A stretch of DNA of 64,000 nt from Pyrobaculum neutrophilum V24Sta (GTDB lineage Archaea; Thermoproteota; Thermoprotei; Thermoproteales; Thermoproteaceae): positions 496,001 through 560,000 of the forward strand of contig NC_010525.1 of NCBI RefSeq assembly GCF_000019805.1, read 5' to 3'. Of the stretch, positions 10,083 to 31,948 are shown in pieces (positions within the stretch are counted from its first letter, which is position 1; each line of letters opens with the position of its first letter). Position numbers and translations under genes: made by a program. The notes under the pieces are model-generated. The model ran no database searches. It saw only the letters and a program-made list of their open reading frames with translations, and was not told where the DNA came from.

Positions 10083-10199
10083 CGGCCCGTAGCTCAGCGG
10101 TCGAGAGCGCCCGGCTGTAGACAGCCCCTGGGGGGACACCCACACAAAACCCCCCAGGCCTATAACGGGCGGTCCCGGGTTCGAATCCCGGCGGGCCGA
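10083..10199 (+). tRNA. tRNA-Tyr(GTA) with a 43-nt intron
   Basis: The acceptor stem pairs CGGCCCG (10083-10089) with CGGGCCG (10192-10198) with A as discriminator. The C1-G72 pair is the archaeal tRNA-Tyr identity pair. The D stem is GCTC/GAGC, the anticodon loop CTGTAGA has GTA at 10117-10119, and the T arm is CCGGG-TTCGAAT-CCCGG. The anticodon stem closes fully only if 10123-10165 is removed, placing the intron between positions 39 and 40. Within the intron a 9-bp helix (127-135 with 150-158) supports a bulge-helix-bulge splice site. Splicing at the usual 37/38 site would leave a G-A mismatch. No CCA is encoded. Confidence 0.93.
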
Positions 10200-10223
10200 T
10201 AGTCCTTTACCCCCCGAGCCAAC

Positions 10224-10497
10224 GTGTCAAAAACAGCGCTCATCACAGGCGCCTCCTAGGTAGAGCACTCGCCGAGGAGCTCGCCGTGAGGAGGTACAGC
10301 CTCATAGGTTCAGGAGGGCAGACGCCATGGAGATCCTCGCCCGCGGCGAGATATGGGGTAGAGGCCGTGTATTACGTAAGAGACACCTCCCAGAGGAGAT
10401 AGACGCCCTGGCGCGCGACGTAAGACAGGGGCTCTACACCCTAGTGAGTGGGGGCAGGTGTCTACGGCCCCCTCCACGAGTTAGACGATAGTTTACC
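10224..10497 (+). pseudogene. Remnant of a short-chain dehydrogenase/reductase gene
   Basis: A GTG start at 10224 reads SKTALITGAS, the beginning of an SDR Rossmann fold, and hits a stop straight after the glycine-motif start. Pieces in other frames continue the family: GRALAEELAV, VEAVYYVRDTSQ, EEIDALARDVRQGLYTLV and GAGVYGPLHELDD, the last matching the NNAG-x-Y segment. About half of a normal 230-residue SDR is recognisable, broken by several frameshifts and stops. It is not translated as a functional enzyme. It begins 25 bp after the tRNA-Tyr gene. Confidence 0.65.
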
Positions 10498-10563
10498 CAG
10501 TCTACGACCAGACATATTTCCACAAAAGGCTAAAGACTGGGTAAGAGCCGGGGGAAGTGGGAA

Positions 10564-11503
10564 TTATCTTCTTTTCGCAAGCGCAACCGCCCCAACTATC
10601 CCTAGGACAACTCCGACTCCCAACACGACGTAACTGATGGGGTCGACGTACGGCACGTAGACCGTCTGCGCGACAGTCGCCGTGGTCGTGACGTATTGTG
10701 TCGCCGTCTTAGTGACTGTGGACGTCTCCGTCTTGGTCACTGTCAACGTCTCTGTCCTAAGTTACCGTGATAGGCCTCGTAACGGTCGTTGTGACAGTCA
10801 CGGTCTCCGTGACGGTGGCCACGGTGGGCATAGTCGTGGTGGCTGTAGCCAGCGCCCCCTCTATTGAAAGCTTTGTGTCTTGGCACGACGTCAAATTGGC
10901 AATCTCATACCCATCTATATACACTTTGTAGACGCCGCAAGTGAGCACTACTTGTGTCGCATTGTCAAATTTGAAGATTCGGCTAGTCGCGACCGACGTA
11001 GTATTTAAGACAACTAATTTGACGGGGCGGTCGAAGGCGACAGTGAAGCGCTTGAGCCAGTGCCATTATGGGTGCTCATCCGGCGGGACGTGGAGCGTCC
11101 TCTTCACGAGGTCAGGCCTAACGAGCAGAAAAGCCTTCTGTACAGAGGCATACGCCGTATAATAGATGCCGCCGACCTCAAAGGCGCGGTCGCACCAGAG
11201 GTAGCCAAATATACGCCCATATCTATCTCTCGGCTCTAGGTCATCTACGTCTAAGTAATCTGTGCCGCCGCAAAAGCCGCTGAGGAAATATCTGGCCTCT
11301 GGGCCGCGCGGCTCGTCCCACTCCCAAGCGTCGTAGCCCACAAGCCTAACTCTGCCCACGGACGTTTCCACAGTATCGCCGTCGGTGACTCTAAATACGA
11401 CAACTTTTTGCACGTCTACGTCCGGCACCTCGACAACGACGACGGTTGCGCTGATCGCCAGAGCCGCAAGCGCCAACAACGCCAACGTGGCTCTCCCTAC
11501 CAT
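10564..11503 (-). pseudogene. Membrane-anchored thermonuclease-like protein, interrupted by a stop and a frameshift
   Basis: The first 145 residues have a signal-like hydrophobic N-terminus and a staphylococcal-nuclease-like core (FRVTDGDTVETSVGRVRLVGYDAWEWDEP, with YGRIFGYLWC later). An in-frame TAA (11066-11068) then stops translation. The same frame continues after the TAA as WHWLKRFTVAFDRPVKLVVL... into a Thr/Val-rich linker. It meets a second stop at 10757-10759, where one extra T shifts the frame. The new frame carries the linker on to a C-terminal membrane helix and AKRR tail (10564-10746). Restored, this would be one secreted, C-terminally anchored nuclease of about 310 residues. The first 145 residues might still be made as a short nuclease. 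Confidence 0.7.
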
Positions 11504-11527
11504 GGAAAAATAGGAGTGAAAAAGCGT

Positions 11528-12226
11528 CTATTTTTCGCGAGATTTTATCTCCCAAAGGATTGTATTTAGTCTCTCTTGGCTGTATGGGCCAGAGCTGTTG
11601 ATGTAGGCCTCAACTCTCATTTCTGAGAGCTCGCCTGAGGCGGATTTCACCACAGTCTTTTCGTACAACTCGAAATCTGCTAGACACATCAACGAATTCT
11701 CGTATATCGGCCCCTTCTCGCCGTATAGAAGTTCAGCATAGCGCCCCTCTATCTCCACCTCTCTTTCATAAAGCTTGCCTTTTCTACCCGCATATTCACA
11801 ATCGCCCAACTCCTTCACTGTGGCTTTAAAGCCCGGCACTTCTTTCTTCAAGATCTGTCTAGTAATTGGATGTACCGGGAGCTCGTCTACCCTTGTCTTC
11901 TCCACTTGACACTCATCGTTCATACAACTTATCTTGTAGTAGATGCCGTCTTTTACGACCTCGGCCCCGGTGAGTCTAAATTTAAGGAATAGGTACTCTA
12001 CCTCAAACCTGTAAACCGCATACCCCTCGTCGCCTTTAACGCCGACGATCATCCATCCACTCAACGGGATCTTGTCTTTGCCATATACTGCATAGCCGGA
12101 GACCGTGTAGTTAGCTTCATAGGATAAAGAGCCGCCGCGGACGCCGCCGGTGTTGAAAAACAGAATGAACACTACGGCGACCACCGCGCCGACCGCCAGA
12201 GCCGACAGTGCTACAACCTTCCTCAT
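11528..12226 (-). CDS. Hypothetical membrane-anchored extracellular protein
   Basis: This 232-residue protein of unknown function starts MRKVVALSALAVGAVVAVVF, one N-terminal membrane helix or uncleaved signal. A predicted extracellular beta-rich domain follows, containing four cysteines (SCMNDEC, GDCEY, MCLADF) that could form disulphides. The ATG at 12226 is preferred over a GTG at 12262 because it places the hydrophobic segment at the terminus. It lies 24 bp upstream of the nuclease pseudogene on the same strand. No known domain was recognised. Confidence 0.6.
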   Translation of the reverse strand: MRKVVALSALAVGAVVAVVFILFFNTGGVRGGSLSYEANYTVSGYAVYGKDKIPLSGWMIVGVKGDEGYAVYRFEVEYLFLKFRLTGAEVVKDGIYYKISCMNDECQVEKTRVDELPVHPITRQILKKEVPGFKATVKELGDCEYAGRKGKLYEREVEIEGRYAELLYGEKGPIYENSLMCLADFELYEKTVVKSASGELSEMRVEAYINSSGPYSQERLNTILWEIKSREK

Positions 12227-14965: not shown

Positions 14966-15187
14966 TCTACAAACACAAAAACACCCCCAGACAAATAAAA
15001 AACCACAAAAAACACACCCCACAACAACACAACACACAACCCACAAAAACCCAAAAACCAATAATACACAAAAAACACAAAACAACGACAAGGAAAAACA
15101 TACACAATACAGACAAAACAAACCAAAAAACACAGCAAAAACACTGACACAAAAACAAGAAACTCCAATTACACACCAAGAAAAACT
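14966..15187. other. Strand-asymmetric A/C-only tract
   Basis: About 220 bp are almost devoid of G and T on the plus strand (and of A and C on the minus strand). An open minus-strand frame through it encodes only Phe/Val/Cys/Leu/Gly low-complexity sequence, so it is not a credible gene. It lies directly 3' of the 15190-15555 minus-strand gene, whose transcript would end in a G/U-rich trailer. Role unknown. Confidence 0.6.
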
Positions 15188-15189
15188 CC

Positions 15190-15555
15190 TTAGCCGTCGT
15201 CTAGTATCTTTTTGGCGGCGCTTGGCCAGTACATTGCCAGCGCAGAGGCGGCGTATTCTATGGCCATGGCCGCCTCCCAGGCGCGTATCTTCCAGCGGGG
15301 GGAGTCGCGGCACCGGCTCGCCACGTAGTAGGCCTTTTTGAGGGCGTCGACGAGGGCAGCCACGAGCTGCCTAACGGGGAGGGGCCTTGGGACGAGCCGC
15401 CTAACCCTCACAGCCACCCCCAGCAGGTCGTCCACAGAGCCCAGGTAGACAGTGTCACGAGGGCGCCAACTACGCTTCAGATACAGCCGACGGCCCAAAA
15501 GCCACAGATAGCCAACGAGAGGGCCAACTCTCACACGGCCGAAATAGAGATACAT
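15190..15555 (-). CDS. Leader-adjacent hypothetical protein, left copy
   Basis: The 121-residue product is nearly identical (about five substitutions) to the one at 31014-31379. Both read outward from a CRISPR leader. The N-terminal half is basic and beta-like (MYLYFGRVRVGPLVGYLW...). The C-terminal half is helical (ALVDALKKAYYVASR...WEAAMAIEYAASALAMYW), which could be a small HEPN-like or wHTH-accessory helix bundle, but no family can be assigned. Its preservation beside leaders suggests a link to CRISPR biology or passive carriage on the duplicated segment. Confidence 0.65.
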   Translation of the reverse strand: MYLYFGRVRVGPLVGYLWLLGRRLYLKRSWRPRDTVYLGSVDDLLGVAVRVRRLVPRPLPVRQLVAALVDALKKAYYVASRCRDSPRWKIRAWEAAMAIEYAASALAMYWPSAAKKILDDG

Positions 15556-15829
15556 GCCGATTACAACACCACCCCATTAAAACATTCCAATATATGTCAG
15601 TAAAGGATGCAATCGACATTTGGAAAACGCACTTAGGATAACAGGCGAAGAACGGCGCTGGGTTCTTCCTTCGGCTAGGCGTAGTTATGATCGTAAAGGC
15701 GAAGAATGGCGCACGCCGTCTCTCAGACAGGAGAATGTGTGAATGTAAAGGGCGGTGGGAAAGCGACCCCCGAGCCAACAAAAAACCACGAAAAAACTTA
15801 AAAACCCAAAAGATCCGAAAATACAAGCC
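15556..15829 (+). promoter_or_regulatory. CRISPR leader of array 1
   Basis: This non-coding stretch is shared with the leaders at 30739-31013 and 34620-34827. Shared marks are two copies of GGCGAAGAAYGGCG (15644 and 15698, 54 bp apart), GACAGGAGAATGTGTGAATG, and an A-rich promoter-like end (ACTTAAAAACCCAAAAGAT) right before the first repeat. It should hold the pre-crRNA promoter and the signals for spacer insertion. It also separates the array from the divergent 121-residue gene. Confidence 0.85.
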
Positions 15830-17709
15830 CCAGAAATCAAAAGATAGTAGAAACATCATATGATCTAACCATAAGACCGAGAGCCTGCCCAGCAGGCTCC
15901 AGAAATCAAAAGATAGTAGAAACAGCGACACAGTCACAGCTGTGGTGCCGCCGTTGCTCACGGAGACCTCCAGAAATCAAAAGATAGTAGAAACCTGTAG
16001 CTTCTCCCACTCTGCTGCGAGTATATGTCTTACAGTAGCCAGAAATCAAAAGATAGTAGAAACAATTGCCCGTCCACCTCCTGCACCCTGTCAAGCCACG
16101 CGGTGACCAGAAATCAAAAGATAGTAGAAACTGCTGTCCTAGTGGTTGAAGTACAGCGAGGAACAGCTGCGCCACTATCCAGAAATCAAAAGATAGTAGA
16201 AACAACGTCGATGCCGACCTTAGCGGCCGCCGTCGCTAGACTTGCCACCAGAAATCAAAAGATAGTAGAAACGTATTTGAACGCCCAGGACGCCTTATAC
16301 GCTACAATCAACGGCCAGAAATCAAAAGATAGTAGAAACATTGCCTCCTGCAAGATCACGGCCTCGGCCTCCTCGTCTTCGGCTCCAGAAATCAAAAGAT
16401 AGTAGAAACGAGAGTATGTTGCGCTTGGCGTACTCAAGCGCATACTCGGCGACCAGAAATCAAAAGATAGTAGAAACTCAGACAGAAGCTCAAGGAGCTC
16501 CCCGCCGACGACGTATTTCCAGAAATCAAAAGATAGTAGAAACATCTGCCTCAATGAATTCTCTTTCAGTGAGCTCTACGTCGTACATGCCCAGAAATCA
16601 AAAGATAGTAGAAACGCATGGCGCCTCTCCCGCGCAGACTTATAAGTCTGCGCTGTGGGCCAGAAATCAAAAGATAGTAGAAACCAATCGATTTTGGACA
16701 GCACATTGACAGGTGGCACATTAAGACGGCTTCCAGAAATCAAAAGATAGTAGAAACCAAATACAAAAGCTCAAAGTTGACGAGCAAACAGAGGTAATCA
16801 ACCAGAAATCAAAAGATAGTAGAAACTTCGTCGACGGTCCGCGCGTCTTCACGCTCTTGGAGCCCGAGCCAGAAATCAAAAGATAGTAGAAACTATAGCA
16901 TGTTAAAGGGCGCCGTTCCAGAGGAGGTGTACAAAGCCAGAAATCAAAAGATAGTAGAAACCCCTAATGACCTTTTTGGCCTTTTCGGTTACGTTCAAAG
17001 AGTAACCCAGAAATCAAAAGATAGTAGAAACTGGCTAGGAAGTCGCATACGCCGTATGCGGCGCTCACTGTGTAGTCCAGAAATCAAAAGATAGTAGAAA
17101 CTACACCTTCCTCTTCAACGTCGCCCTCGGCCTCATCCCCCTCGCCAGAAATCAAAAGATAGTAGAAACAGCCATAAGCCTGCCAAATGGCGGATAAGAA
17201 GCACTGATCCTATTTCCAGAAATCAAAAGATAGTAGAAACGTGCGGTACTTTATATCCGCGGGCGCACAGCTCCCGTGCCCAGAAATCAAAAGATAGTAG
17301 AAACTAAAACAGGGGGAGCTACGCCCCCTGCGCTGTTTTAAAACCCAGAAATCAAAAGATAGTAGAAACCTGCTTCGACAGGAGCTCCTCGGCGATTTCG
17401 GGCGACACGGGCACCCCAGAAATCAAAAGATAGTAGAAACATTATGCTCTCCTTCACCTCGTTTACAACCGACTTGACTATGGCCAGAAATCAAAAGATA
17501 GTAGAAACCTTATGACTTCTCTGTCCGCAACATCGAAGATTCGAGCCTTTCCAGAAATCAAAAGATAGTAGAAACGTACTGAGGCGCCGTGGGCGGCGCC
17601 TTGACGGCGATGTGGCCCGCCAGAAATCAAAAGTATAGTAAAAACCTATATCGTAATATTCGAATTGGGCTTTCGTCTCTTTTTCCAGAAATCAAAAGAT
17701 ACATGAAAT
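15830..17709 (+). CRISPR. CRISPR array 1: 28 repeats, 27 spacers
   Basis: The 25-bp repeat begins CCAGAAATC and ends GATAGTAGAAAC, and recurs every 64-73 bp with spacers of about 39-48 bp. The first 26 copies match. The last two (17620 and 17685) are mutated, which marks the leader-distal end, so transcription runs left to right from the leader. Several spacers contain striking inverted repeats (listed in the findings). The array ends 135 bp before the 3' end of cmr3. Confidence 0.98.
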
Positions 17710-17843: not shown

Positions 17844-18716
17844 TCAGGGTTTGTTTTTCTGGTCTTTGCAGAGGACGCTTCCGTAGCCTCTCTCTTTGTG
17901 TAACCCGACGTTGGTCGCCGCGGTTTTTAGCTTGAGGGCGGTTCCCGGCGGTAGCGCTTGGTATACGGCGCGTCTCCTGCCCTCGGCCATGTTGTAGCCC
18001 AGCCCGACGTACGTCGACTTGACCTTGGGGCCCTTTTCGCCGCAGACTCCGTACACTTCCTCGACCTCCTCCAGGCCCTTGGCCCCTCCAACCTCCGCCG
18101 TGGGGCCCTCTGAGTAAAACAGCAGGGGGGACAGGAGGACGCCCTCGCTACACTGCTTGGGCCCGCCGGGGTCTTGGTCCACCTCGACTAGGGCCGCTCT
18201 GCCCTCTCCGCCGAGTCTAGCCACCGTCTTTATGGGCTTTGCCCTCTCGCAGTCGATGTAGTAGAGGAACGCCACTTCGCCGGGGCTTGCGCCGTTGATG
18301 TAGGTGAACAGCGCGTGGTAGAGGTTCTCCACGGCCTTCTCGGGGCCTAGCCTCACGCCGGGCTTCTCGTAGGCCCTCACGCCGCCCTCGGCCCTCGGGC
18401 TCTGCCCCTCTCCCTTGGCGCAACTTAGGTACTCGCCCAGCTGCTCCACCCTGTAGAGCCTGCCCTCTGCGTAGAAGTACCGCCTCCCGCCGATCTCGAC
18501 GAGGGGCCCCCACACCGCCCTGCAACCGAGGATCTGGAGGGCGTCTGTCCCCCCGCCTGCGGCGCCGGCCTCTCTGTATATGTAGGCGAGGGCCCCCAGC
18601 GCCGTGCTGGGCGTGGGGAGGTGGGCCACTAGGTCCCCCCCTATGTCCTCTACGCCAGCCACCTGCTTCGCCCCGAGGTGGAGGGGGCCCAGGGGCTTGA
18701 ACCTAGCCGCCATCAT
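17844..18716 (-). CDS. cmr3: Type III-B RAMP protein Cmr3
   Basis: This 290-residue Cas5-group RAMP starts with RFKPLGPLHLGAKQVAGVED and ends with the glycine-rich loop TAATNVGLHKERGYGSVLC, which matches Cmr3. It binds the crRNA 5' tag at the base of the Cmr complex next to Cmr2. The ATG at 18716 gives an ATGA overlap with the cmr2 stop; the longer open frame to 18788 lies within cmr2 and is not the start. It is transcribed with cmr2, toward the end of CRISPR array 1. Confidence 0.88.
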   Translation of the reverse strand: MMAARFKPLGPLHLGAKQVAGVEDIGGDLVAHLPTPSTALGALAYIYREAGAAGGGTDALQILGCRAVWGPLVEIGGRRYFYAEGRLYRVEQLGEYLSCAKGEGQSPRAEGGVRAYEKPGVRLGPEKAVENLYHALFTYINGASPGEVAFLYYIDCERAKPIKTVARLGGEGRAALVEVDQDPGGPKQCSEGVLLSPLLFYSEGPTAEVGGAKGLEEVEEVYGVCGEKGPKVKSTYVGLGYNMAEGRRRAVYQALPPGTALKLKTAATNVGLHKERGYGSVLCKDQKNKP

Positions 18717-21409
18717 AGCACCCCCTTCAACACGGCGAGTGCGCCGAAGAACTCCCTTATATACCTCGGGGACGCCCCGCGGAGCCATGAGGCTATCTGC
18801 GCGGCGGCTCCGCCGTCTTTGGCGTTCCTCCTGAGGACGTGCTCGGCCACTCTGTAGGTGGCGTCTGCGTCGAGGTCCCCGTTAAGCCTCCTCTCGGCGT
18901 CGTGGGGGGCGTTTTTGCTGATGGCGTCTTTGAGCATGTAGAGCCACGCGAGCTTCAGTCTGTCCACTGTGGAGACGTCTCTAAGGGGGAGGACGGCGGC
19001 GTGCTGGGTCCTCGAGGAGGCCACGGCTACGGAGTCCTTCCTGTGCCTCTCCCACGCGGCGTCTTTTGCGCGTTCTAGGTCCTCGTGGGATTTCCTCAGC
19101 TCGATGGACATTATGTCCATCACATGTACGAACCTCACGGCGTAGCTCCTCCCGTAGGCCGCCAGCTGTGGTATGTGGTAGCCGCCGACGCTGTGGAAGC
19201 CGCCCCCCCAGAAGTTCTGCCTGGTCTGCGCCACCACGTCCAGCGCCTTTTCCACAGGCGCGAGGGCCACCACGTCGTCGCCTCCTGCGTATATCAACAT
19301 TCCGGAGGCCCCCTCCACGGCCGCCCAGTCTCTAAGCGACGTCACAACCAGCGATCTGTTTATGGCGACGCGGTAGAGGGGAGTTATGGGCACTGTCTGC
19401 TCCGCATCCTCCCCCACGTGGCGCTTAAGGTAGCTCTTCACGGCCTTGAAGTACTCCTCCACGCCGGCCAGCCCCCCGCCGAGCGCCCTCTCGTATTCTT
19501 CATACCACCTAGCCGGCAGCCTCCCGTCGAGGAGCTCGCCCATGCTGTCGCCGTCTCCCCTGACGACTGCGTAGAAGAGCCTGGGCCCCAGCGCGGCGCT
19601 GTGCGGCCACCCCGCGAGTCCGGCCCCCGCCGCCAACCCGCCGAGGTCCACCTCCGCCTTTTCAAGGGCCTTGATACACTCCTCCCACTCCCTCTTCATG
19701 TCCTCGGCGGTTCCCCACACCATCTCCAGGTCGCGCCCCCCGCCCTTCGTTAGATAGTCCGCGACCTTGAGACACGCCCCACTCCTCCCGTCTTTAATCT
19801 TCTGGGCCTCCCTCTCCAACGCCTCTCCCACCTTGGCCACCACAGCCACGGCCACGTCCTCCGTGCTTTCAAACCTCTGGAGCTTCTCCTCAGGCAACGG
19901 CTCCTCGCCTGGTTGCTTGGAGGGCTTCGCCCTGAGGTATATCAGCCTTTTGGCGAGGCACCTGGGCCCCAGGAACTCCCCGGGGCGTATGACCCTCCTT
20001 AGATGCCTCTCGAAGTCTTCGCAGTTGGCCCCCAGCGCGTTTATAAAGGCCTCTAGATCGTCTGGGTTGTAGTCCTCCTTCCCCGTGGGGGTTCTCACCT
20101 TCCTAAGCCCAACGACCGCCGGCTCGGAGCCGCAGACTGTACAGACGCGCCACGTCTTCTCGTTGAAAAACACGTGTGTAGAGGCGGCGGGCCCCGGCGT
20201 CTTGAAGGCCGGCTTCACCTCGTCGAAGGCGGCGGGGTGGAAGTAGGGCCCGGCCGTGGGCACCCTCCTCCGCTGCCTCTCTAGAGACATCTGAAAGCCT
20301 ACGGCTGCGTGCGAGTTCCGTAGTAGCTCGTCGAAAAAGGCGATTTTTAGAACGGGGCAGTGGTCGGCGCCGGCGCAGTACTTATCCCTAAGCTCCCGGT
20401 AGTACTCCCCTATGTCAATGACTGTGACCCTAAGCGGGAGCCTCACCTCTGCGTAGTCCCCAAGCCTATACAGGGCGTCAAAGCAGCCGCCGCTCGGAAT
20501 TACGTCTATGTGGCCCCTCAGCAGGTCGCAGACGTGCCCCCTCGCGAGGCCGGTGAGGCAGTCCAGCGCCTTTTTAAACCCCTCCACGACCTCCCTCACC
20601 ACCTCCTCCTCGCTACTCCACCTGCGGGGGAGCACTAGCTGGATCTTCTCGCCGATGAGGGGCTGCATTATCCACGCCGGCTCTGGGGGCGTGAAGCCGA
20701 CCTCGCGCATGACGTCTCTGAGATGCTTGTCGAGCTTCTGGGAGCTCCCGCGGATGAAGTAGAAGTAGTACGGGTTGAGCCTCGCGGTTGGCCTCAGCAG
20801 TACGTCGGGGCCGTACTTCTCGACGAAAGGCCAGGCGGTCAGCCAGACGGCAATGGAGAGGGCCCAGCTGCCGGCCCAGAAGTCGCCGGCCTTCCTCCCG
20901 GCCCCCACGAAGTCCTGGACCCCCGGCACGTCGGCGTTTACGAAGTACCCCGAGGGCTCTCCGCCGTCGGAAAACCAGTTGGCGAGCGTGGCCATGGCGT
21001 AGGCCTCGTCGAAGGCGTCGTAGAAGGGCGCCAGGGGGTTGGCCACCCTTGCCGACAGCCCCCTCTTGATCCAAAGCGCCTCGTAGGCGGCGTAGAAGAC
21101 GTGGTATTTACCGCCGGCGCCCTCGACAACCTCGGCGAGATCCCTCCAGTACGCCCTGACCTCCTCCGCCGGCGGCTTCCTCAGCTCCCTCTTCAGCGTG
21201 GGGGAGAAGACGTTGTGTATGTAGCCGTATGGAGCGCCGCCTCTCGGCATGCCGCCCCACACGTACTCCCTAATCCTCTCGACGAGGTCCCCGCCGGCGT
21301 CGGCCCCCAGGGCCCTGCGCACCCTCTCGACGAGCTCTCTTACCTGGCCGTCCTCCTCCCAGTGCGGGGGGCTCGACAGCAGGAGAGCCGCCTTTTTTGA
21401 AAAGTCCAT
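18713..21409 (-). CDS. cmr2: Type III-B Cas10/Cmr2 with GGDD cyclase, HD motif absent
   Basis: The 898-residue product carries a palm domain with AGGDDV at residues 708-713, the active site for cyclic oligoadenylate synthesis. It has a Cys cluster (CTVCGSEP near 420, GANCEDF and GPRCLAK later) that fits the Cmr2 zinc site. The N-terminus reads AALLLSSPPHWEED where active Cmr2 proteins have HDPP, so the HD DNase looks lost. The start is the ATG at 21409, about 22-25 bp from a TATA-like stretch; a TTG at 21418 is less likely. It should be the large subunit of the Cmr complex. Confidence 0.92.
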   Translation of the reverse strand: MDFSKKAALLLSSPPHWEEDGQVRELVERVRRALGADAGGDLVERIREYVWGGMPRGGAPYGYIHNVFSPTLKRELRKPPAEEVRAYWRDLAEVVEGAGGKYHVFYAAYEALWIKRGLSARVANPLAPFYDAFDEAYAMATLANWFSDGGEPSGYFVNADVPGVQDFVGAGRKAGDFWAGSWALSIAVWLTAWPFVEKYGPDVLLRPTARLNPYYFYFIRGSSQKLDKHLRDVMREVGFTPPEPAWIMQPLIGEKIQLVLPRRWSSEEEVVREVVEGFKKALDCLTGLARGHVCDLLRGHIDVIPSGGCFDALYRLGDYAEVRLPLRVTVIDIGEYYRELRDKYCAGADHCPVLKIAFFDELLRNSHAAVGFQMSLERQRRRVPTAGPYFHPAAFDEVKPAFKTPGPAASTHVFFNEKTWRVCTVCGSEPAVVGLRKVRTPTGKEDYNPDDLEAFINALGANCEDFERHLRRVIRPGEFLGPRCLAKRLIYLRAKPSKQPGEEPLPEEKLQRFESTEDVAVAVVAKVGEALEREAQKIKDGRSGACLKVADYLTKGGGRDLEMVWGTAEDMKREWEECIKALEKAEVDLGGLAAGAGLAGWPHSAALGPRLFYAVVRGDGDSMGELLDGRLPARWYEEYERALGGGLAGVEEYFKAVKSYLKRHVGEDAEQTVPITPLYRVAINRSLVVTSLRDWAAVEGASGMLIYAGGDDVVALAPVEKALDVVAQTRQNFWGGGFHSVGGYHIPQLAAYGRSYAVRFVHVMDIMSIELRKSHEDLERAKDAAWERHRKDSVAVASSRTQHAAVLPLRDVSTVDRLKLAWLYMLKDAISKNAPHDAERRLNGDLDADATYRVAEHVLRRNAKDGGAAAQIASWLRGASPRYIREFFGALAVLKGVL

Positions 21410-21418
21410 AAGAGACAA

Positions 21419-22783: not shown

Positions 22784-23952
22784 TGGAGGCCGCCTTCAGA
22801 GTCAGAGTCTCGACGCCGCTGTCCGTCGGCTGGTACGACCCAACGCTCGTCGACCCGGAGAACCCCCTCAGGCCCGCCTCGCTCAAGGGGGTCTGGCGCT
22901 GGTGGGCGAGGGCCTTCGTAGGAGGGGTCCTCTACGAGAGGGGGTGTCTAAGGGGGGAGCCCGGCCGCGTGGAGGTGCTCCGGCCGAGCAGGAGGGAGGC
23001 CGAGGCGGTGTCGAGGGCGGTCGGCATTACGCTGGGCCTCGGCTACGCCGGGAGCAGAGAGGCGGCCTCGTCGAAGTTTAGAATTACCACACGCGTCGTG
23101 AGGGGGCCCCGGGTGGAGAGGGCCAGAGGCGGCCCCATCTACCTCGGCGGGAGGCCCGTGGAGCTCCAGAGGTTCAAGCTCCTCACGCTGGGGAAGCCCC
23201 CCAAGACCGTCGAGTACGTCTCAGACGGCGAGTTCGAGATCAAGATATCTGCCGAGGGCATCCCGCGGGAGGTCTTCACAGCCGCCGTGGGCATATTAGC
23301 CGTGGCCCTCACGCTGGGGGGCGTGGGGAAGGGGTCGCGGAAGGGCCTCGGCTCTCTTGACGTGGTCTACGCCAGCGAGCCCCGGCACGTCAAACTCGCC
23401 GAGCTGGTCAGAGACGTGAAGAGGGCAGTGGAGAGGCTGGTCAGAGACGACTGCGGGGGGAAGCCCAGGGGCCTCCCCCCGATGCCCGTCGTGGCGGACG
23501 CGGCGGTGGAGGGCGTGAAGGTGGCGCAGATATATGCGGTGCAGAAGGCCCAGTTCCCAGACCTCCACAACTTCTTCCTAAGGCCCCAGAGGACGCGGGT
23601 CCTCCACGGCGACTACCGGGCGGAGGACGACCTCAGGAAGACCCTGTCTGCCTGGGCACTGGGCCTCCCCCGTTCGCAGAGGGGCACCGGCTACGAAAGC
23701 GACGTGGAGAGGAGGGCCTCCACCATAATGCTCTCGTACCACGGCAGTGGGCACATCTACGGCGACGGGGCTTTCCTCACGGCGCTCATCTCGGGCGACT
23801 GGCCCAGGAGGATAACCTGGAGCTCCGAATACGCAGAGGAGGAGGTTGAGGTAGACGAGAAGAAGATCATAGAAGCGCACGCCGCAGCCCTAGCCGAGTT
23901 CCAGGAGTACGTCAAAAAGATAGGCGGCGAAGTCGCGAAGGTATGGCCGTGA
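22783..23952 (+). CDS. cmr1: Type III-B RAMP protein Cmr1
   Basis: The 389-residue product begins FRVRVSTPLSVGWYDP and continues RPASLKGVWRWWARAFVGG, the characteristic Cmr1 N-terminal RAMP signature. A glycine-rich loop (GVGKGSRKGLGSLDV) closes the first RAMP fold near residue 190. Cmr1 caps the crRNA 3' end of the complex with Cmr6. It overlaps cmr5 and cmr6. Confidence 0.92.
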   Translation: MEAAFRVRVSTPLSVGWYDPTLVDPENPLRPASLKGVWRWWARAFVGGVLYERGCLRGEPGRVEVLRPSRREAEAVSRAVGITLGLGYAGSREAASSKFRITTRVVRGPRVERARGGPIYLGGRPVELQRFKLLTLGKPPKTVEYVSDGEFEIKISAEGIPREVFTAAVGILAVALTLGGVGKGSRKGLGSLDVVYASEPRHVKLAELVRDVKRAVERLVRDDCGGKPRGLPPMPVVADAAVEGVKVAQIYAVQKAQFPDLHNFFLRPQRTRVLHGDYRAEDDLRKTLSAWALGLPRSQRGTGYESDVERRASTIMLSYHGSGHIYGDGAFLTALISGDWPRRITWSSEYAEEEVEVDEKKIIEAHAAALAEFQEYVKKIGGEVAKVWP

Positions 23953-24737
23953 AGAGGCCGAAGAAGAGGGAGGAAAGGGAGGTAGACTACGGCAAGTACT
24001 TCTCAAGCTGCGCAGGCGACTACAACGTGGTGTCCTGCGTCAACCTGGCGTTTCTAGAGGCTTCTAGAGACCTGGCGAGGCAGAACATCAGGCTCAGGAT
24101 CCCCGAGTTCTCGCGGTGGGCCGTCTTAACGCTCCACCAGAGGCCGCCGCAGATGTGGGACCAGGTCAAGCGCTACCTCGAGCTGGTCTACGCGGCGGCC
24201 AGAGGGGCGTTTCAAAACGTCTTCAAGTTCGAGTTCTCCCTAGAGACCCCGCTCACTATACACACCAGATGGCCCTACCTCCCCCTGGAGATAGGCATAG
24301 CGTGGCACCCCATCCTCAACGTGCCCTACATCCCGGCGAGCTCCCTCAAGGGAGCCCTCAGGGCGGCCGCGCCCGAGCCCGTCTGCGACTTCACCAAGGC
24401 GGAGCTCTTCGGCACCGCCCAGGAGGAGGGGCTGTTGGTGGTCTTCGACGCGTACCCCACCGGCGGCAAGGCGGTGAGGCCAGACGTGGTGACGCCCCAC
24501 TACAGAGAGGTGGAGGGCGAGATAGCGGAGACTCAGGCGAGCCCCGTCCCCCTCGTCTTCCCCACCGTCCCCCCGGGCACAAAGTTCCAGTTCATGGTGG
24601 GAATTCTGCCGAGAGACGAAAAGAGGGAGGTTGACTATAAGAAGTGCGAGATGGAGTTGTTCGACGCAGTGAAGAAGACGCTGGTGAGGGGACTGGGCGC
24701 GAAGACCGCAGTAGGGTACGGCGTCTTCAAAATTTAA
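23943..24737 (+). CDS. cmr6: Type III-B RAMP protein Cmr6
   Basis: This 264-residue RAMP has the Cmr6 core PLTIHTRWPYLPLEIGIAWHPILNVPYIPASSLKGALR and a C-terminal glycine loop RGLGAKTAVGYGVFKI. It is a Cas7-like subunit at the crRNA 3' end. It overlaps the end of cmr1 by 10 bp and ends the plus-strand cmr operon. All six Cmr subunits are now accounted for, so the interference complex is complete. Confidence 0.92.
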   Translation: MAVKRPKKREEREVDYGKYFSSCAGDYNVVSCVNLAFLEASRDLARQNIRLRIPEFSRWAVLTLHQRPPQMWDQVKRYLELVYAAARGAFQNVFKFEFSLETPLTIHTRWPYLPLEIGIAWHPILNVPYIPASSLKGALRAAAPEPVCDFTKAELFGTAQEEGLLVVFDAYPTGGKAVRPDVVTPHYREVEGEIAETQASPVPLVFPTVPPGTKFQFMVGILPRDEKREVDYKKCEMELFDAVKKTLVRGLGAKTAVGYGVFKI

Positions 24738-24757: not shown

Positions 24758-24997
24758 ATGGATATGTTCTTGATAGATTTGCGTAAGGTCATCGCCAAAA
24801 ACTTCCGAAAGATCGAGGGGGCTGAGGCCTCCTTGCGGCACGGCAAACTCCCCTTGATAGGCCCCCATCGGCGGCGGCAAAAACAACTTCATTTGCGCGC
24901 CCCCTATATCAGTTGCCTTATGGAGGGAAATCGGACGGTGGAAATCTACGAAGAAGTAGACCGCGACTACTGTGGGGTGTGCTCATGGTGCTCCTAG
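24758..24997 (+). pseudogene. Deletion fusion: ATPase N-terminus joined to the tail of a Cys-rich protein gene
   Basis: The frame begins FLIDLRKVIAKNFRKIEG...LPLIGP, an SMC/RecF-like ATPase start. One base later, in the next frame, IGGGKNNFICAPP completes a degenerate Walker A (GP-IGGGKN). The last part, EEVDRDYCGVCSWCS, resembles the C-terminus of the Cys-rich gene at 26351 (VDCGDVPCDLCRC). Like that gene it ends a few bases inside the start of a 180-residue gene. The piece therefore looks like a duplicated ATPase plus Cys-rich pair with the middle deleted. Confidence 0.6.
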
Positions 24998-25533
24998 TCG
25001 TCCTTCCCTGCGGCCGCCTCGCTGAGCTTGAGAGGCTACTCAACTGCGGCTCAGTGAGGGAGGTGGGAGACGTCGCCAGATGCGAGGGGCCCTACAGCAT
25101 CTATCTGAACTACGTGGAGAGGTGCGACAGAGGCCTCCCAATAGCGGGGACCCCCGCCGGAAGCGCCGGAGAGGGCGAGCTGTGCTACGTCGGCATAGTC
25201 CTCACGAAGTACTGGGCAAGCGACTGGGAGTACATGTCGGACAAGGCGGAGAGCGAGGTGGCGCAACACGCGGAGGAGCTCCTGCCCAAGGTCGCCCAGC
25301 TGGCGTATATGGCAGTCGCCACGAGGGCCCCCAGCGTGCGCCGGGAGACAGACGACGTGGTCTACAGACACATGCTCTGGGTCTGGGTGAGGAGGGGCTG
25401 GGAGGCGTGCGGAAAGGCGTGGAAGATAGCCGCCTTCGCGGCGCTGGACTCCCCCTGGGACCAGGCTTTGGCGTATGAAGACTCCATGCTCCGCGGCGAG
25501 GAGAAATACGGCGGCGTATTTATAAAGCTGTAG
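24985..25533 (+). CDS. Unrecognised Cmr-associated protein, copy A
   Basis: The 182-residue product is a paralogue of 26752-27291. Conserved blocks are VVLPC-x2-LAEL at the start, LCYVGI, WASDWEY, MAVATRAPSVR, VYRHMLWVWVRRGWEACGKA and the ending GEEKYGG-x-FIKL. The fold looks alpha-helical and cytoplasmic. No nuclease or nucleotide-binding motif was identified. The ATG at 24985 aligns with the start of the paralogue. It lies between cmr6 and csx1 in the same direction, so it is probably part of the type III accessory set. Function unknown. Confidence 0.75.
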   Translation: MVLLVVLPCGRLAELERLLNCGSVREVGDVARCEGPYSIYLNYVERCDRGLPIAGTPAGSAGEGELCYVGIVLTKYWASDWEYMSDKAESEVAQHAEELLPKVAQLAYMAVATRAPSVRRETDDVVYRHMLWVWVRRGWEACGKAWKIAAFAALDSPWDQALAYEDSMLRGEEKYGGVFIKL

Positions 25534-25545
25534 CCAGTTTTCCCA

Positions 25546-26364
25546 GTGATTTCGCGCCTTTACATAAGCGGCGTGAGGCAGATAGAGGAGACCTCCCTAG
25601 AGCTTAGGGAGAAGGTGCTCCTCGTGGGGCCAAACGGCGGGGGGAAGTCCAGCGTAATATACTCGGCCCTCGCCCTCCTCTACTCCATATCCTCCACCCG
25701 CTCTCCTGCTTGGGCGGTGGAGAACAGCTTCGGGGAGTTGCGAAACCTCGTGCGGGGCGATAGGGCTGTGGTGGAGGGTGTCGTGGGCGGCGAGACGCAC
25801 AAGCTGGTGGTCGACAGGGAGGGGAGGGCTGAGGTTGACGGCGCGCCGGCCCCAGCCGCTCTGCGCCGGATCGAGGTGGGGTACTTCAACACGCACGTGT
25901 CCGTGGGGAGGTGGGGGGCCCAGGCGTTTACAGAGGGCGTCGAGGTGAGGGCCGCCGAGGTCGCCGCCTGGGTCGAGGAGCAGCTGAGGCGCCTGGGCAT
26001 AGCGTCGAGGTTCCACTTCGATTCCTACTACAGCGGCGCCTGGATCCACACAGCCCGCGCCGCCTATGGGGTCAAGAGGGCCCTCGGCATCCTCCTGGCC
26101 TCCTACGGCGCAGAGGCTGTGTTTGGAGAGGTGTACGAGGCCGGGCTACACTACGACCTAGGGGCGAAGATCATCGGGAGGGTGCTGGCCCAGCTAGACG
26201 CCTTCGTGATGCTGGAGACGCACGTCCCGCTGTACGTCAAAGAGGCGCTGGACAGAGGGTGGCAGGTCCTCTACATGAGGGACGGCAGAGCCTTCGAGAT
26301 AGCCGACGTGGCGGACCTAAAGGCCATAGACGAAGAGGCGGCGTGGGCATATGCCTACGTTTAA
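25546..26364 (+). CDS. AAA-type (SMC/RecF-like) ATPase in the Cmr accessory module
   Basis: The 272-residue product has Walker A GPNGGGKSS (residues 28-36). A late segment LDAFVMLETHVPLYV sits where Walker B and the D-loop His of AAA_21/SMC-like ATPases occur, but the usual DE pair reads LETH. It lacks the long coiled coils of true SMC proteins. The start is GTG at 25546, 12 bp after copy A. Its end overlaps the Cys-rich gene by 14 bp, giving translational coupling. The role is unknown; stand-alone ATPases of this type recur near type III systems. Confidence 0.75.
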   Translation: MISRLYISGVRQIEETSLELREKVLLVGPNGGGKSSVIYSALALLYSISSTRSPAWAVENSFGELRNLVRGDRAVVEGVVGGETHKLVVDREGRAEVDGAPAPAALRRIEVGYFNTHVSVGRWGAQAFTEGVEVRAAEVAAWVEEQLRRLGIASRFHFDSYYSGAWIHTARAAYGVKRALGILLASYGAEAVFGEVYEAGLHYDLGAKIIGRVLAQLDAFVMLETHVPLYVKEALDRGWQVLYMRDGRAFEIADVADLKAIDEEAAWAYAYV

Positions 26365-26758
26365 GCTAGACCCAGTCCAGGGACGTTGCACGTCACAGCT
26401 CAACTTCCCGTGCGACGGCTACTGCATATGTGCCCCCGACCCCAACAACGCCAAATGCGGCGGCAACCTCCTGTGCGCCACCCCGGGCCAGCTCGACTGG
26501 TGTATAGCCCAGGCGGACAGGCCCAAGGTGAAGATAGCGGTTGAGTGCATGTGCGACCTGACGAGCTTCAGAGCCACCCACAAGATCGCGGAGAAGGTCA
26601 TCAGACAGATAGGTAGCTACGCCTCAATCTGCACTCCAGTGGAGAAGTGGGCCGCATTCCCGCCGGACTGGCCGGAGGAGCTTGAGGAAACGCTGAGGCA
26701 GAGCGGGATCAAGATCGTGGACTGCGGCGACGTCCCCTGCGACCTCTGTAGATGCTAG
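26351..26758 (+). CDS. Cys-rich protein of the Cmr accessory module
   Basis: The 135-residue product has 14 cysteines, including CDGYCICAPD, CGGNLLC, ECMCD and a CGDVPCDLCRC end. This spacing suggests zinc or iron-sulphur binding or multiple disulphides; there is no signal peptide, so metal binding is more likely. It overlaps the upstream ATPase (14 bp) and the downstream 180-residue gene (ATGCTAG). No known family was recognised. Confidence 0.7.
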   Translation: MPTFKLDPVQGRCTSQLNFPCDGYCICAPDPNNAKCGGNLLCATPGQLDWCIAQADRPKVKIAVECMCDLTSFRATHKIAEKVIRQIGSYASICTPVEKWAAFPPDWPEELEETLRQSGIKIVDCGDVPCDLCRC

Positions 26759-27291
26759 TCGTCCTCCCCTGCGAGAAACTCGCCGAGCTGGCCGCGAGGC
26801 TCGGTTGCCCAGAGGCGCCGAAGCACGTCGACGACACGACAAAATGCGGCAGATACGCCCTCTACCTAAACTACGTAGAGGAGAAATGCGCCGGCTGGAG
26901 CTCCAAGGCGGCGGGAGAGGCTGGGGAAGGCCGAATGTGCTACGTGGGGATAACCCTATCCGACCTGTGGATAGAGGACTGGGGCTACCGCTCGTACGAA
27001 GCCGCCCCCTACGCGGCCGAAGAGGCCGAGAAACTACTGGAAAAAGTAGCAGACATAGCCAACATGGCAGTCGCCACGAGGGCCCCCAGCGTGAGAGCAG
27101 ACACGGGAGACCTAGTCTATAGGCACATGCTCTGGGTCTGGGTGAGGAGGGGCTGGGAGACGTGTGGAAAGGCGAGAGAGATAGCGGCATACGTAGCCCT
27201 AAAGACTCCACAAGACACCTACTGGCTCTACAGCGACAGCATGCTCCACGGCGAGGAGAAATACGGCGGAACGCTTATAAAACTTAGATAG
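26752..27291 (+). CDS. Unrecognised Cmr-associated protein, copy B
   Basis: The 179-residue paralogue of 24985-25533 shares LVVLPC-x2-LAEL, MCYVGI, DLWIEDWGYRS, MAVATRAPSVR, VYRHMLWVWVRRGWETCGKA and GEEKYGGTLIKL. Its ATG lies inside the final codons of the Cys-rich gene. The near-identity of the C-terminal halves against divergent N-termini suggests recent conversion or strong constraint on the RAPSVR...VRRGWE region. Function unknown. Confidence 0.75.
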   Translation: MLVVLPCEKLAELAARLGCPEAPKHVDDTTKCGRYALYLNYVEEKCAGWSSKAAGEAGEGRMCYVGITLSDLWIEDWGYRSYEAAPYAAEEAEKLLEKVADIANMAVATRAPSVRADTGDLVYRHMLWVWVRRGWETCGKAREIAAYVALKTPQDTYWLYSDSMLHGEEKYGGTLIKLR

Positions 27292-27300
27292 TTGCACAGT

Positions 27301-29082
27301 ATGGGTTCGTCTGAAGTTAAGATATTCGCCATCGCGACCCTGGGCCTAATGAGGAGGTACGATGAGGTCGTATACAAGGTGTACGTCCCGGCAGGCGGCC
27401 GGCAGAGTAGAAAGCCGTACTACATCCGCACCTACTTTAGCCCCCTCGCCCTAATTCTGGCGCATGCAATAGAGCACAAAGCAAGCTCGGCCACATTAAC
27501 AGTGGCGGCCCCCATAACTCTGTACACCGAGTGGGAGAGCCAGATAGAGAAGAGCCAGATAGACTTGGAAGCCGTCGCGAACAGTATACTGAAAAAAGAA
27601 ATCTTAAGAGAAGAAACCTCAAAAAAGGAAGACACGCAGAAACAATACCTCATAGACGAGGAGGTGAGTAGTGAGTTACAAGAAGCGAAAGAGATCTACA
27701 GGATCACAAAACTGGAGTTCCCAGACTCCGCAGGCGGTGGGCGCAGCTCCGACAAACTCCCCTATATATTCACAAGAAAAGCCACCATTCAATACATAGC
27801 AGAGAAAAGCGGTGAGGGCTCAAACAAGCTCTCACTAGACTTCTACATGGCGCTACTCCCACTTACGGGAAGCTTCCAGCACGACGAGGAGAAAGTCTGG
27901 AAGGGGAAAGTCTGGATATTCAGAGAGAAGTCGGAGGGCGACATAGAGATGTTCGGGAGGTCTTTGGCGTCTTCCTTTACCTACGCCATAAGGGAGTCCC
28001 TCAGACGGGTGGAGGGAAAGGGCGGCGCCATAATCCTCGTGGACACAACCCACGGCCTCAACATAGCGGCCGCCCACCTAATGGCCAGCGTAGTGCAGAA
28101 CTACGGCCTCATAAACTACGAGCTCGAGAGGCGCGGCATAGAGCTCCTCGACATATACTTCTACAACAGCGACCCGTACGACCCAAAAAGAAGAGACAAA
28201 CTGCAGCTGCTAAGCCACTACTACCAGAAGGTGGTAGGCGCGTCGATCGCGGAAATAGCTCACAGAGCCCCAGAGGTGTGCCAAAGCGAGAAGGGCGGAG
28301 GAAGTCCCGGGGGCAGAGAGCCAAGCCAAGAGTTCTGCAACCTGCTCAAAAGGGTTATAACCATGCTCAGGTCAAACCTACTGCTCTGGTCCCTCTACGA
28401 CATTGAGACACTTAACTACACACCCGACGAGATCAGAATCAGCGAGATCAGAATCGGGTTGAAATATAAGGATAAGGATAAGAAAAAGAGTGAGATCAGC
28501 GAGATAAATTACGACATAGAGGGGGCCGTCGACAGCGGCGTGGTGTGGCTGTGGGAAATCCTAAAAGAGGCGGCCCAGAGGGCCATAACAGAGCTAAAGG
28601 ACAAAGACGTGATGAGCCACATCGAGAGGACAAGAAGAAAGAAGGCGGTGTGCTTCAACGTAGAGAGGCTGGCCAAGGCCGTGAAGGAGTCGACAGACTG
28701 GCACTGGAACCTCCTGCGCGAGATAATGGGCCCCACAGCGGAGCTGATACTACAACACGAGCTAGAAGAGTGGGAGAGCTCAAAAAACCTCAAGTACCTC
28801 TACCCCAAAGGGCTGGGAGACTGCATAAAATGCGACATCCTCCCCAGAGAGTCCGTCGGAGGCATCACATACCGCATCGCCAAGCCGCAACTTGAGCAGG
28901 AGAAGGCGAGGAACATAGTGGCGCACGCCGGCATAACAAAGGTGGTTGAAGACATGTACTTTCTCTTCACAGAACAACAAAACGACTGCAGACTGACGGT
29001 GCTATGCATAGCGGAGAAATTCCCAGACAACATCCTGCAAGCCATCATAAAGAGGGGGCAATCCTCCTACGACACCTCTTGA
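27301..29082 (+). CDS. csx1: Csx1-family CARF-HEPN ribonuclease
   Basis: The 593-residue product has an N-terminal CARF-like domain with the ligand loop ILVDTTHGLNIAAAHL (D248 to H251 region), and a C-terminal HEPN domain with ARNIVAH (R537 to H542), the Rx4H catalytic motif. Such proteins are RNases switched on by cyclic oligoadenylate made by Cas10. The protein is longer than the common 400-450 residue Csx1, with charged inserts at about 75-130 and 330-400. The ATG at 27301 is preferred over the TTG at 27292. Codon use in the insert regions is A-richer than in the cmr genes. Confidence 0.82.
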   Translation: MGSSEVKIFAIATLGLMRRYDEVVYKVYVPAGGRQSRKPYYIRTYFSPLALILAHAIEHKASSATLTVAAPITLYTEWESQIEKSQIDLEAVANSILKKEILREETSKKEDTQKQYLIDEEVSSELQEAKEIYRITKLEFPDSAGGGRSSDKLPYIFTRKATIQYIAEKSGEGSNKLSLDFYMALLPLTGSFQHDEEKVWKGKVWIFREKSEGDIEMFGRSLASSFTYAIRESLRRVEGKGGAIILVDTTHGLNIAAAHLMASVVQNYGLINYELERRGIELLDIYFYNSDPYDPKRRDKLQLLSHYYQKVVGASIAEIAHRAPEVCQSEKGGGSPGGREPSQEFCNLLKRVITMLRSNLLLWSLYDIETLNYTPDEIRISEIRIGLKYKDKDKKKSEISEINYDIEGAVDSGVVWLWEILKEAAQRAITELKDKDVMSHIERTRRKKAVCFNVERLAKAVKESTDWHWNLLREIMGPTAELILQHELEEWESSKNLKYLYPKGLGDCIKCDILPRESVGGITYRIAKPQLEQEKARNIVAHAGITKVVEDMYFLFTEQQNDCRLTVLCIAEKFPDNILQAIIKRGQSSYDTS

Positions 29083-30374: not shown

Positions 30375-30738
30375 GTTTTTACTATCTCTTGATTTCTGGG
30401 TGGAGAGATCATCAGGCAAGCCATATATGAGTTAATAGAGTTTCTACTATCTTTTGATTTCTGGAAAGCGTCCAGCGCAATAAGGAATCTTCTGCTAGAC
30501 ATAATATTGTTTCTACTATCTTTTGATTTCTGGGAGCGGGATCCTCATGTTAACGCCGAGTCGGGACGGCGAATAGTTTCTACTATCTTTTGATTTCTGG
30601 GCCGCGAGTGCGGCACCGGGCCCACGCTAAGAACTTCGCAAGCGTGTTTCTACTATCTTTTGATTTCTGGATAAGAAGTGCAACAAATGCGCTTTGAAGA
30701 GAGACTTTATTCCGTTTCTACTATCTTTTGATTTCTGG
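30375..30738 (-). CRISPR. CRISPR array 2: 6 repeats, 5 spacers
   Basis: The same 25-bp repeat as array 1 appears in reverse orientation (GTTTCTAC...TTTCTGG on the plus strand), at 30375, 30440, 30509, 30576, 30646 and 30714. The copy at 30375 is mutated, marking the leader-distal end. The leader lies to the right, so transcription runs right to left, toward the truncated gene. Confidence 0.97.
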
Positions 30739-31013
30739 GGCTTGTGTTTTTAGATCTTTTGGGTTTTTAAGTTTTTTCGTGGTTTTTTGTTGGTTCGGCG
30801 GTCGCTTTCCAGCCCCTCTTTACATTCACACATTCTCCTGTCTGGGTGTAGGCGTACGCCATTCTTCGCCTTTACCATCATACACGCGCCCTAGAGAAGG
30901 CGGCCACCCAGCGCCATTCTTCGCGTTTGGCCTTCTAAACCCTTGTCTAAAGTATATTACATCCTTTACTGACATATAGAGTAATGTTTTAATGCTTGTG
31001 GGATATCGTAGGC
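30739..31013 (-). promoter_or_regulatory. CRISPR leader of array 2
   Basis: It is the reverse complement of the shared leader: the repeat-proximal A-rich block, the GACAGGAGAATGTGTG segment and two GCGAAGAATGGCG motifs (30856-30870 and 30911-30925). It is the closest relative of the array 3 leader in the repeat-proximal half, and matches the array 1 leader plus gene on its outer side. Confidence 0.85.
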
Positions 31014-31379
31014 ATGTATCTCTACTTTGGCCGTGTGAGAGTTGGCCCTCTCGTTGGCTATCTCTGGCTTTTGGGCCGTCGGCTGTATCTGAGGGTGGGG
31101 TGGCGTCCTCGTGATACCGTCTACCTCGGCTCTGTGGACGACCTGCTGGGGGTGGCTGTGAGGGTTAGGCGGCTCGTCCCAAGGCCCCTCCCCGTTAGGC
31201 ACCTCGTGGCTGCCCTCGTCGACGCCCTCAAAAAGGCCTACTACGTCGCCAGCCGCTACCGCGACTCCCCCCGCTGGAAGATACGCGCCTGGGAGGCGGC
31301 AATGGCCATAGAATACGCCGCCTCTGCGCTGGCGATGTACTGGCCAAGCGCCGCCAAGAAGATACTAGACGACGGCTAG
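31014..31379 (+). CDS. Leader-adjacent hypothetical protein, right copy
   Basis: The 121-residue product matches the left copy (15190-15555) except for about five residues (for example KRS to RVG near residue 27, Q to H, C to Y). The start is taken as the ATG at 31014 to match that copy; an upstream in-frame start at 30996 is inside the leader. It diverges from array 2. No family was recognised. Confidence 0.65.
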   Translation: MYLYFGRVRVGPLVGYLWLLGRRLYLRVGWRPRDTVYLGSVDDLLGVAVRVRRLVPRPLPVRHLVAALVDALKKAYYVASRYRDSPRWKIRAWEAAMAIEYAASALAMYWPSAAKKILDDG

Positions 31380-31948
31380 GGGGTTGTGTTGGCCGCGTTG
31401 AGCTCGGCTTTTTCGACTGCCGGTTCGATGAGTCGCGCGTCGGCTCTGTTTATTTTGGCCCCCGACGCGGCGTATATGCTGTGCCTACCATGAGCTTGTC
31501 CCGTCTTGGGGCTGTCACCTGGCGGCGGCCTGCTCTACGTCTCTACGGCCCTTTGACGTCGCCGTATGATCGTGCTTGAAGCCGGCGAGCCTCATCTCGG
31601 CCTCGTGTCAGTCGGCTGGAGCGCCGCCGTGTCTGCTGAGGCTTGGCGTCACTAAGTCGGCTCTTCGCCGACTGCGTTTCTCAGCCTCTGTTTGATTCCG
31701 GGGCCGGCTTTCGCCTCACTGCGGTGGGTTATCCACCGCGCCTCCTCAGCCGTATCGCCGGGACCTCAGTGCGGTCTGCTAATGGGGGGGGGGGCCAGGC
31801 CGGCTTGGGGGCCAACCTTTCCTCAGCTCCACGGCGCCTCCGGCTGCCGGCTTGGTGAAGTGCGGCCTGCCTGGCGTAAGGCGGCTAAGCCTGTGTGCGT
31901 CGAACGGCGGGGGTGCGCCGTGTACTGCGTTTTGTTGGGGGTGTGTTC
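31380..31948. other. 570-bp stretch without a supported gene; G11 run
   Basis: Several overlapping short plus-strand frames exist, but they show no domains and have G/C-rich shadow-like composition. A run of 11 G (31784-31794) is present, which is prone to slippage and G-quadruplex formation. The stretch separates the array 2 unit from the adaptation operon's 3' end. Confidence 0.4.

Follow-up and report, generated by a model that had tools for sequence, protein, structure and literature searches.

A three-gene module between cmr6 and csx1 of Pyrobaculum neutrophilum is probably an accessory unit of type III-B immunity

The type III-B locus and its setting

The genome of Pyrobaculum neutrophilum, an archaeon of hot springs, is a single contig of 1,769,823 bases. 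The stretch analysed here, referred to as the window, is 64,000 nucleotides long and covers positions 496001-560000. It holds a type III-B locus, of the RNA-targeting Cmr kind, in which cmr3 and cmr2/cas10 are read from the minus strand; on the plus strand follow cmr4-cmr5-cmr1-cmr6, then the genes under study and finally csx1 (Table 1). In the survey of Pyrobaculum CRISPR systems (PMC3396285), Crispr1 is placed at 511830-513709 and the locus runs from Tneu_0562 (cmr3) to Tneu_0572 (csx1); Tneu_0567 (cmr6) and Tneu_0572 are listed there, and the genes between them are left out. No mention of Tneu_0568-0571 was found in the parts of the literature covered; these families may already appear in the inventory of type III accessory proteins that Shah and colleagues published in 2019 (cited in PMC11229360).

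The N-terminal region of the window Cmr2/Cas10 reads ALLLSSPPHW, compared with ALLHDPPHK in its relatives. Judging from the retained GGDD and the lost HD motif, this Cas10 should be a cyclase lacking the HD nuclease. The idea that the genes under study substitute for the missing nuclease was dropped as a general role, because the HD motif is kept in most of the Cas10 proteins at the other loci carrying these genes.

The whole Cmr locus is flanked by repeats in inverted orientation, about 0.6 kb in length (15184-15854 and 30714-31385; arms of 437 and 169 nt, 91%). Each side carries one copy of an ORF of 121-127 aa close to a CRISPR array, and a 55% homologue of this ORF adjoins the module in another locus (L032, 12253-12681).

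Table 1. Features of the module and its neighbours in the window, and loci carrying the three genes
Feature	Position	Strand	Evidence or remark
cmr2/cas10, same locus	18713..21418	-	TIGR02577 3.8e-51; GGDD kept, N-terminal HD motif gone
cmr6, upstream neighbour of module	23943..24737	+	TIGR01898 9.3e-29
Decayed first copy: ATPase N-terminus slipping out of frame at Walker A and, after an internal deletion, Cys-rich C-terminal CGVCSWCS	24758..24997	+	Local alignment with shuffles
RFas2, intact first copy of third gene, 182 aa	24985..25533	+	PADLOC PDLC01070 E=1.8e-57; dN/dS about 0.36 against second copy
TATA-like box TTTATAAA, about -26 of ATPase start, within last codons of RFas2	25519..25526	+
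ABC/OLD-type ATPase, 272 aa, GTG start	25546..26364	+	Walker A GPNGGGKSS, signature-like AAYGVKR, Walker B EVYEAGLH, ETH motif
Cys-rich PD-(D/E)XK-like protein, 135 aa, 14 Cys, ATG start	26351..26758	+	Motif LDWCIAQADRPKVKIAVECM, Met for Lys
RFas, second copy of third gene, 179 aa, belonging to the intact ATPase	26752..27291	+	PADLOC PDLC01070 E=6.1e-61
TATA-like boxes in third-gene ends	25519-25526 and about 27273-27282
csx1, CARF protein, directly 3' of module	27301..29082	+	Pfam Csx1_CARF 3e-7; PADLOC Csx1 6.9e-12
Loci carrying the trio			G000 (window), G029 (L031, L034), G028 (L032, L086), G040 (L033), G033 (L036), G031 (L037), G032 (L038), G013 (L089), G006 (L094), G018 (L100), G017 (L101), G262 (L198)

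Gene layout and the decayed first copy

The ORF positions and overlaps that an earlier note on this DNA had given for the module were confirmed by an ORF check: the ATPase gene overlaps the gene of the Cys-rich protein by 14 nt, and the latter overlaps the 179-aa third gene by 7 nt. Upstream of this intact trio, the same note had described the piece starting at 24758 as an ATPase N-terminus fused to a Cys-rich C-terminus. Both parts do align. The local alignment score was 59 with the N-terminal part of the L031 ATPase and 53 with the C-terminal part of the L031 Cys-rich protein (DYCGVCSWCS compared with EVCGVCKWCS), and neither score was reached by any of 500 shuffles. The piece is not a clean fusion, however. 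At Walker A the ORF drops out of the ATPase frame: the GGGKNNFI expected after GP is found in the adjoining frame, which reads IGGGKNNFI. The piece is therefore a frameshifted, internally deleted pseudogene and not a working fusion.

It had also been proposed that the three genes were copied together. The two window copies of the third gene are 59% identical and group together in the tree (87/92), so that a tandem duplication within the lineage is still the simplest account. A Cmr6 tree was left out of account, its L033 row being out of frame. The remnant is closer to the L031 and L033 genes than to its intact neighbours. This closeness is probably due to fast evolution of the intact window ATPase, since its branch is among the longest in the tree.

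The ATPase

Four motifs recur over the 14 ATPase members compared: Walker A (GPNxGGKS), a signature-like LSYGQRR, Walker B (ExxExxLHxD) and ETH(S). The best profile match in the PDB was AriA of PARIS (1.5e-12), a match to be read at class level only, as other OLD-type ATPases gave similar scores. PtuA, Rad50 and retron ATPases ranked lower in the same search. In PADLOC, the mad3 and NsnB models matched all 14 members and the AriA and AbiLi models 13 of 14; no match was obtained with the Cas-type models of that collection. The ATPase of L198 exceeded the Pfam cut-offs of AAA_21 and AAA_15, and RecF/SMC N-terminal matches were also found. On its motifs and its PDB, PADLOC and Pfam matches, the trio ATPase is classed as an OLD/AriA-type ABC ATPase.

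The Cys-rich protein

The Cys-rich protein gave no match in Pfam, NCBIfam or PADLOC. Most of its homologues have D-x(n)-[E/D]-x-K in the middle of the protein, as in PD-(D/E)XK nucleases, and the order of elements is in line with the layout of that fold: a D precedes a strand that closes with E/D-x-K, and a helix and another strand follow. The motif is PDCLLVLVGPRGPAEKILVECK in L031, PDCYYAIKQRDKLKMYILECK in L033, ADWFILYKTRRRVISLIIECK in L089, PDICLCLIRNGNPVLPIMIECK in L100, PDVCILINGSIRINVDCK in L101, YDFICKSKNKIVAIEVK in L086, PDLVFKIKRMCYLVELK in L198 and PDCYLVEILGTKRIAMVIECR in L032. The plain [E/D]-x-K form occurs in L031, L033, L034, L086, L089, L100, L101 and L198. In the window protein (LDWCIAQADRPKVKIAVECM) the Lys is changed to Met, and in L036, L037 and L038 to Thr. 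The wider pattern D-x(n)-[ED]-x-[KRTM], which was chosen post hoc, was present in 11 of the 15 Cys-rich proteins, where 1.4 were expected from shuffles. In the motif scan the L032 row was set aside, and the strict-pattern matches of L037 and L101 lay off the aligned motif and were not counted as Lys-bearing.

Profiles linked the clade CY1 with CY2 and CY3 and weakly with CY5. The profile link of the L198 protein to the other clades failed, and its assignment is via motif and position. The sole nuclease match of the Cys-rich profile in the PDB was Hje, a weak one on the motif (E=1.2), and hhalign comparison with Holliday-junction resolvases, including Hjc, gave a best E of 0.04, which is not significant. 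For the Cys-rich and third proteins, structures were modelled from the window sequences, with single- or two-sequence input (pLDDT about 55). The single-sequence model of the Cys-rich protein had low confidence (pLDDT 55.6), and fold comparison with it gave no match. Ras/Rab-like and PII-like fold matches of the low-confidence models (E of 0.1 to 4) were treated as noise.

Based on the motif, our hypothesis is that the Cys-rich protein is a PD-(D/E)XK-like nuclease. In the window copy the predicted activity may be weakened or lost, as the expected catalytic Lys is missing. The family also has Cys clusters at the N-terminus, and often at the C-terminus too, which probably bind zinc or an Fe-S cluster. 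The many conserved Cys residues, the replacement of the Lys in the window protein as well as in L036, L037 and L038, and the lack of a significant nuclease fold match would all suit a non-catalytic zinc or Fe-S adaptor, with the whole module being structural or regulatory for Cmr, like an extra subunit. This seems rather improbable to us, since the D and E/D positions are conserved in nearly all of the Cys-rich proteins, and the Lys recurs across most of the independent clades, even in L198, which is the most distant.

The third protein

The third protein belongs to the cas_RFas families PDLC01070 and PDLC01095 of PADLOC, which are annotated as cluster 17 associated or of unknown function. Among 13 homologues, six matched PDLC01070 and four PDLC01095, and a profile comparison connects the one group with the other (E=4e-5). 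Those of the more distant clades are joined by position alone, the L198 protein having a marginal profile link (E=0.001). No significant match was obtained in Pfam or in fold searches with low-confidence models. The suggestion that the trio might be an undescribed system holds accordingly in part: its third protein was already in PADLOC, whereas the ATPase and the Cys-rich protein fit no Cas model there.

Comparison of the two window third genes gave a dN of 0.39 and a dS of 1.08 (dN/dS about 0.36), and from this ratio the orphaned RFas2 looks to be maintained under constraint. A protective role of the third protein would fit an orphaned copy beside a broken pair, but so would simple recent decay.

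Expression of the module

The remnant, the intact ATPase gene and csx1 are each preceded by a TATA-like box at -25 or -26 (for csx1, -26 of its ATG). None was seen in the window before the inner genes of the trio, cmr5, cmr1 or cmr6. Over 16 ATPase starts, the A+T content of positions -33 to -21 was 82%, compared with 48% before the Cys-rich and third genes (p of about 1e-6); this contrast may largely be that of non-coding and coding DNA, although the box in the window lies within the coding sequence of RFas2. The presence of a box at the ATPase gene and its lack at the inner genes make the trio look like a leaderless transcript of its own, with a predicted promoter. It should be mentioned that in both third genes the conserved codons for the C-terminus (FIKL and LIKL) double as the TATA-like box of the next gene.

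The broken first copy, the long ATPase branch and the change of Lys to Met might be taken to mean that the module of this genome is largely decaying baggage, of which the third gene alone is kept. We consider this very improbable: the frames of the second copy are intact, the ATPase motifs are conserved, a promoter-like box is present and the dN/dS of the third genes is about 0.36.

Distribution and linkage to Cas10

Homologues were searched for at three levels. Each of the three proteins served as query against 45 genomes of the order, profiles built from the third and the Cys-rich protein were run over 81 genomes of the class, and for the phylum the profile of the ATPase was applied to 398 genomes (E<=1e-25). 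The three genes travel together: they were found in the same order and orientation at 14 Cmr loci in 12 genomes (Table 1), one of which (G262, locus L198) is from another class than the rest. The position relative to the Cmr genes takes at least four arrangements. It is after cmr6 in most loci; the trio is 3' of csx1 on the other strand in L032, beyond cmr3 in L033, and between cmr3 and cmr4 in L198. Thus, the trio is conserved as a unit while its position shifts. The identity of the ATPases between loci is mostly 25-40%.

In the Thermoproteaceae, all Cmr loci with readable flanks have the trio (G037, whose contig ends before that point, was left out). It is absent from L093 and L099, which are Cmr loci of another family of the order, and from L092. 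The mapping of co-occurrence beside Cas10, taken beyond the Thermoproteales to the genomes of the phylum searched, upheld the membership in type III loci that the earlier note had put forward: at the threshold used, the ATPase family was present in 12 of the 398 genomes, and all of its 15 places were within Cas10-containing loci. Scattered homologues without Cas10 were not found at the profile level. One of the places is not a Cmr locus; it lies beside a different, HD-bearing Cas10 operon (G027, L035:8939-17334), which suggests that the module can attach to more than Cmr. There, the ATPase is accompanied by a truncated Cys-rich piece. No relatives of the trio were detected in IMG/VR or in phage and plasmid collections. 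A degenerate-pattern scan of GTDB contigs with the third protein returned nothing, and the contigs matched by a pattern from the ATPase alignment contained only unrelated ATPases of the RecF/SMC type.

The genomic setting also bears on whether the trio processes nucleic acids for spacer acquisition or for a repair linked to Cmr, with a RecF/Rad50-like ATPase and a Cas4- or resolvase-like nuclease. The RecF/SMC N-terminal matches and the nuclease pattern of the Cys-rich protein are in line with such a unit, and the CRISPR-linked nurA-csm6-herA cluster of Pyrobaculum offers a precedent (PMC3396285). We regard this as unlikely, given that in the loci read the trio follows cmr and cas10 genes and not cas1/cas2, and that the closest relative of the ATPase among solved structures is a defence protein.

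Broken copies of the module were observed in the window, L032, L035, L037, L100 and L101; from this frequent breakage, its activity could be costly or toxic. The Cys-rich gene has an internal TAG in L032 (9716-10129) and a frameshift in L100 (17493-18000), and the ATPase gene is split in L101 (3482-4394). In L037 (G031, 10184-11600), a second copy of the module has an intact ATPase gene, but its third gene is truncated at the start of a CRISPR array.

Proposed role

The trio is co-inherited and linked to Cas10, and it has its own probable promoter; it is probably an accessory unit of archaeal type III-B immunity that has remained unstudied. The role that we favour, tentatively, is that of an accessory effector, with the AriA-like ATPase in control of a small nuclease and the third protein serving as a regulator or adaptor. 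PARIS keeps its AriB nuclease sequestered by a hexamer of AriA until a trigger sets it free (PMC11455837). By analogy, the trio ATPase would be a sensing and holding scaffold. The Cys-rich protein would be the nuclease, and once released or stimulated it would damage viral or host nucleic acid. The third protein would couple this pair to the Cmr complex or keep it safe. On an encounter of Cmr with viral RNA, the trio would come into action together with Csx1. The nuclease activity, the sequestration, the trigger and the role of the third protein are what we infer in this scheme.

Most characterised ancillary effectors of type III systems are activated by cyclic oligoadenylates (cOA) via CARF or SAVED domains. 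Neither these nor another cOA-sensing domain was found in the three proteins with Pfam, NCBIfam and PADLOC. Because of this, and because Csx1 is present anyway, coupling to Cmr might take place by contact or by virus-induced release. The latter would make the trio a guard: an AriA-like ATPase-nuclease pair that fires when a virus inhibits Cmr through an anti-CRISPR, and not on Cmr activity. The closeness of the ATPase to AriA, its matches to further defence ATPases of the OLD type and the TATA-like box of the trio agree with this, and PARIS has been described to follow such a logic, firing on Ocr (PMC11455837). A guard nevertheless seems less probable, as the strict Cas10 linkage is equally expected of an effector activated by Cmr, a TOPRIM/DUF4435 partner is lacking, and no anti-CRISPR trigger is known.

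The accessory effector might also be put in a more specific form, which we consider unlikely: a branch of type III effectors without CARF, in which the AriA-like ATPase holds the Cys-rich nuclease and RFas triggers it through Cmr. If true, this branch would join toxin sequestration in the style of PARIS to RNA-guided detection. A conserved trio of this kind at Cmr loci, with an ABC ATPase and a nuclease-like partner, would suggest that type III immunity can be armed in a second way. The trio would also place the cas_RFas families in a context in which they can be tested, and would connect OLD/PARIS-type defence ATPases with CRISPR in archaea.

Comparison with known systems

Like the CARF effectors Csx1/Csm6, Can1 and Card1, the trio is an accessory adjoining cas10; unlike them it is without CARF, and Csx1 is present in addition. 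With Hjc/Hje and Cas4, which are PD-(D/E)XK nucleases, most of the Cys-rich proteins appear to have in common the PD...ExK pattern and the order of strand and helix, with the weak Hje match falling on the motif. They differ in their many Cys residues, the variable Lys and the lack of significant profile similarity. The third protein is a member of the PADLOC cas_RFas set (6.1e-61), but those families have no assigned function, and the ATPase and the Cys-rich protein stand outside the Cas-type models.

An ABC ATPase with a separate small partner is also seen in the PtuA-PtuB pair of Septu and retrons and in other OLD-type pairs. The trio is distinguished from Septu by its tie to Cmr, and Pfam and PADLOC searches revealed no HNH partner of the PtuB type in it. 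In PARIS, too, a small stand-alone ATPase of the ABC/OLD type lies beside a small partner, and AriA is the best solved-structure match of the trio ATPase. The two small proteins of the trio gave no AriB-type TOPRIM/DUF4435 match in Pfam or PADLOC; the ATPase is instead partnered by the Cys-rich protein, with its PD-(D/E)XK-like pattern, and by a third protein that is unrelated, and the trio ATPase is found only in Cas10-linked loci. Compared with these systems, the module is a defence unit of the ABC ATPase and nuclease-like kind, here bound to Cmr and having partners of its own.
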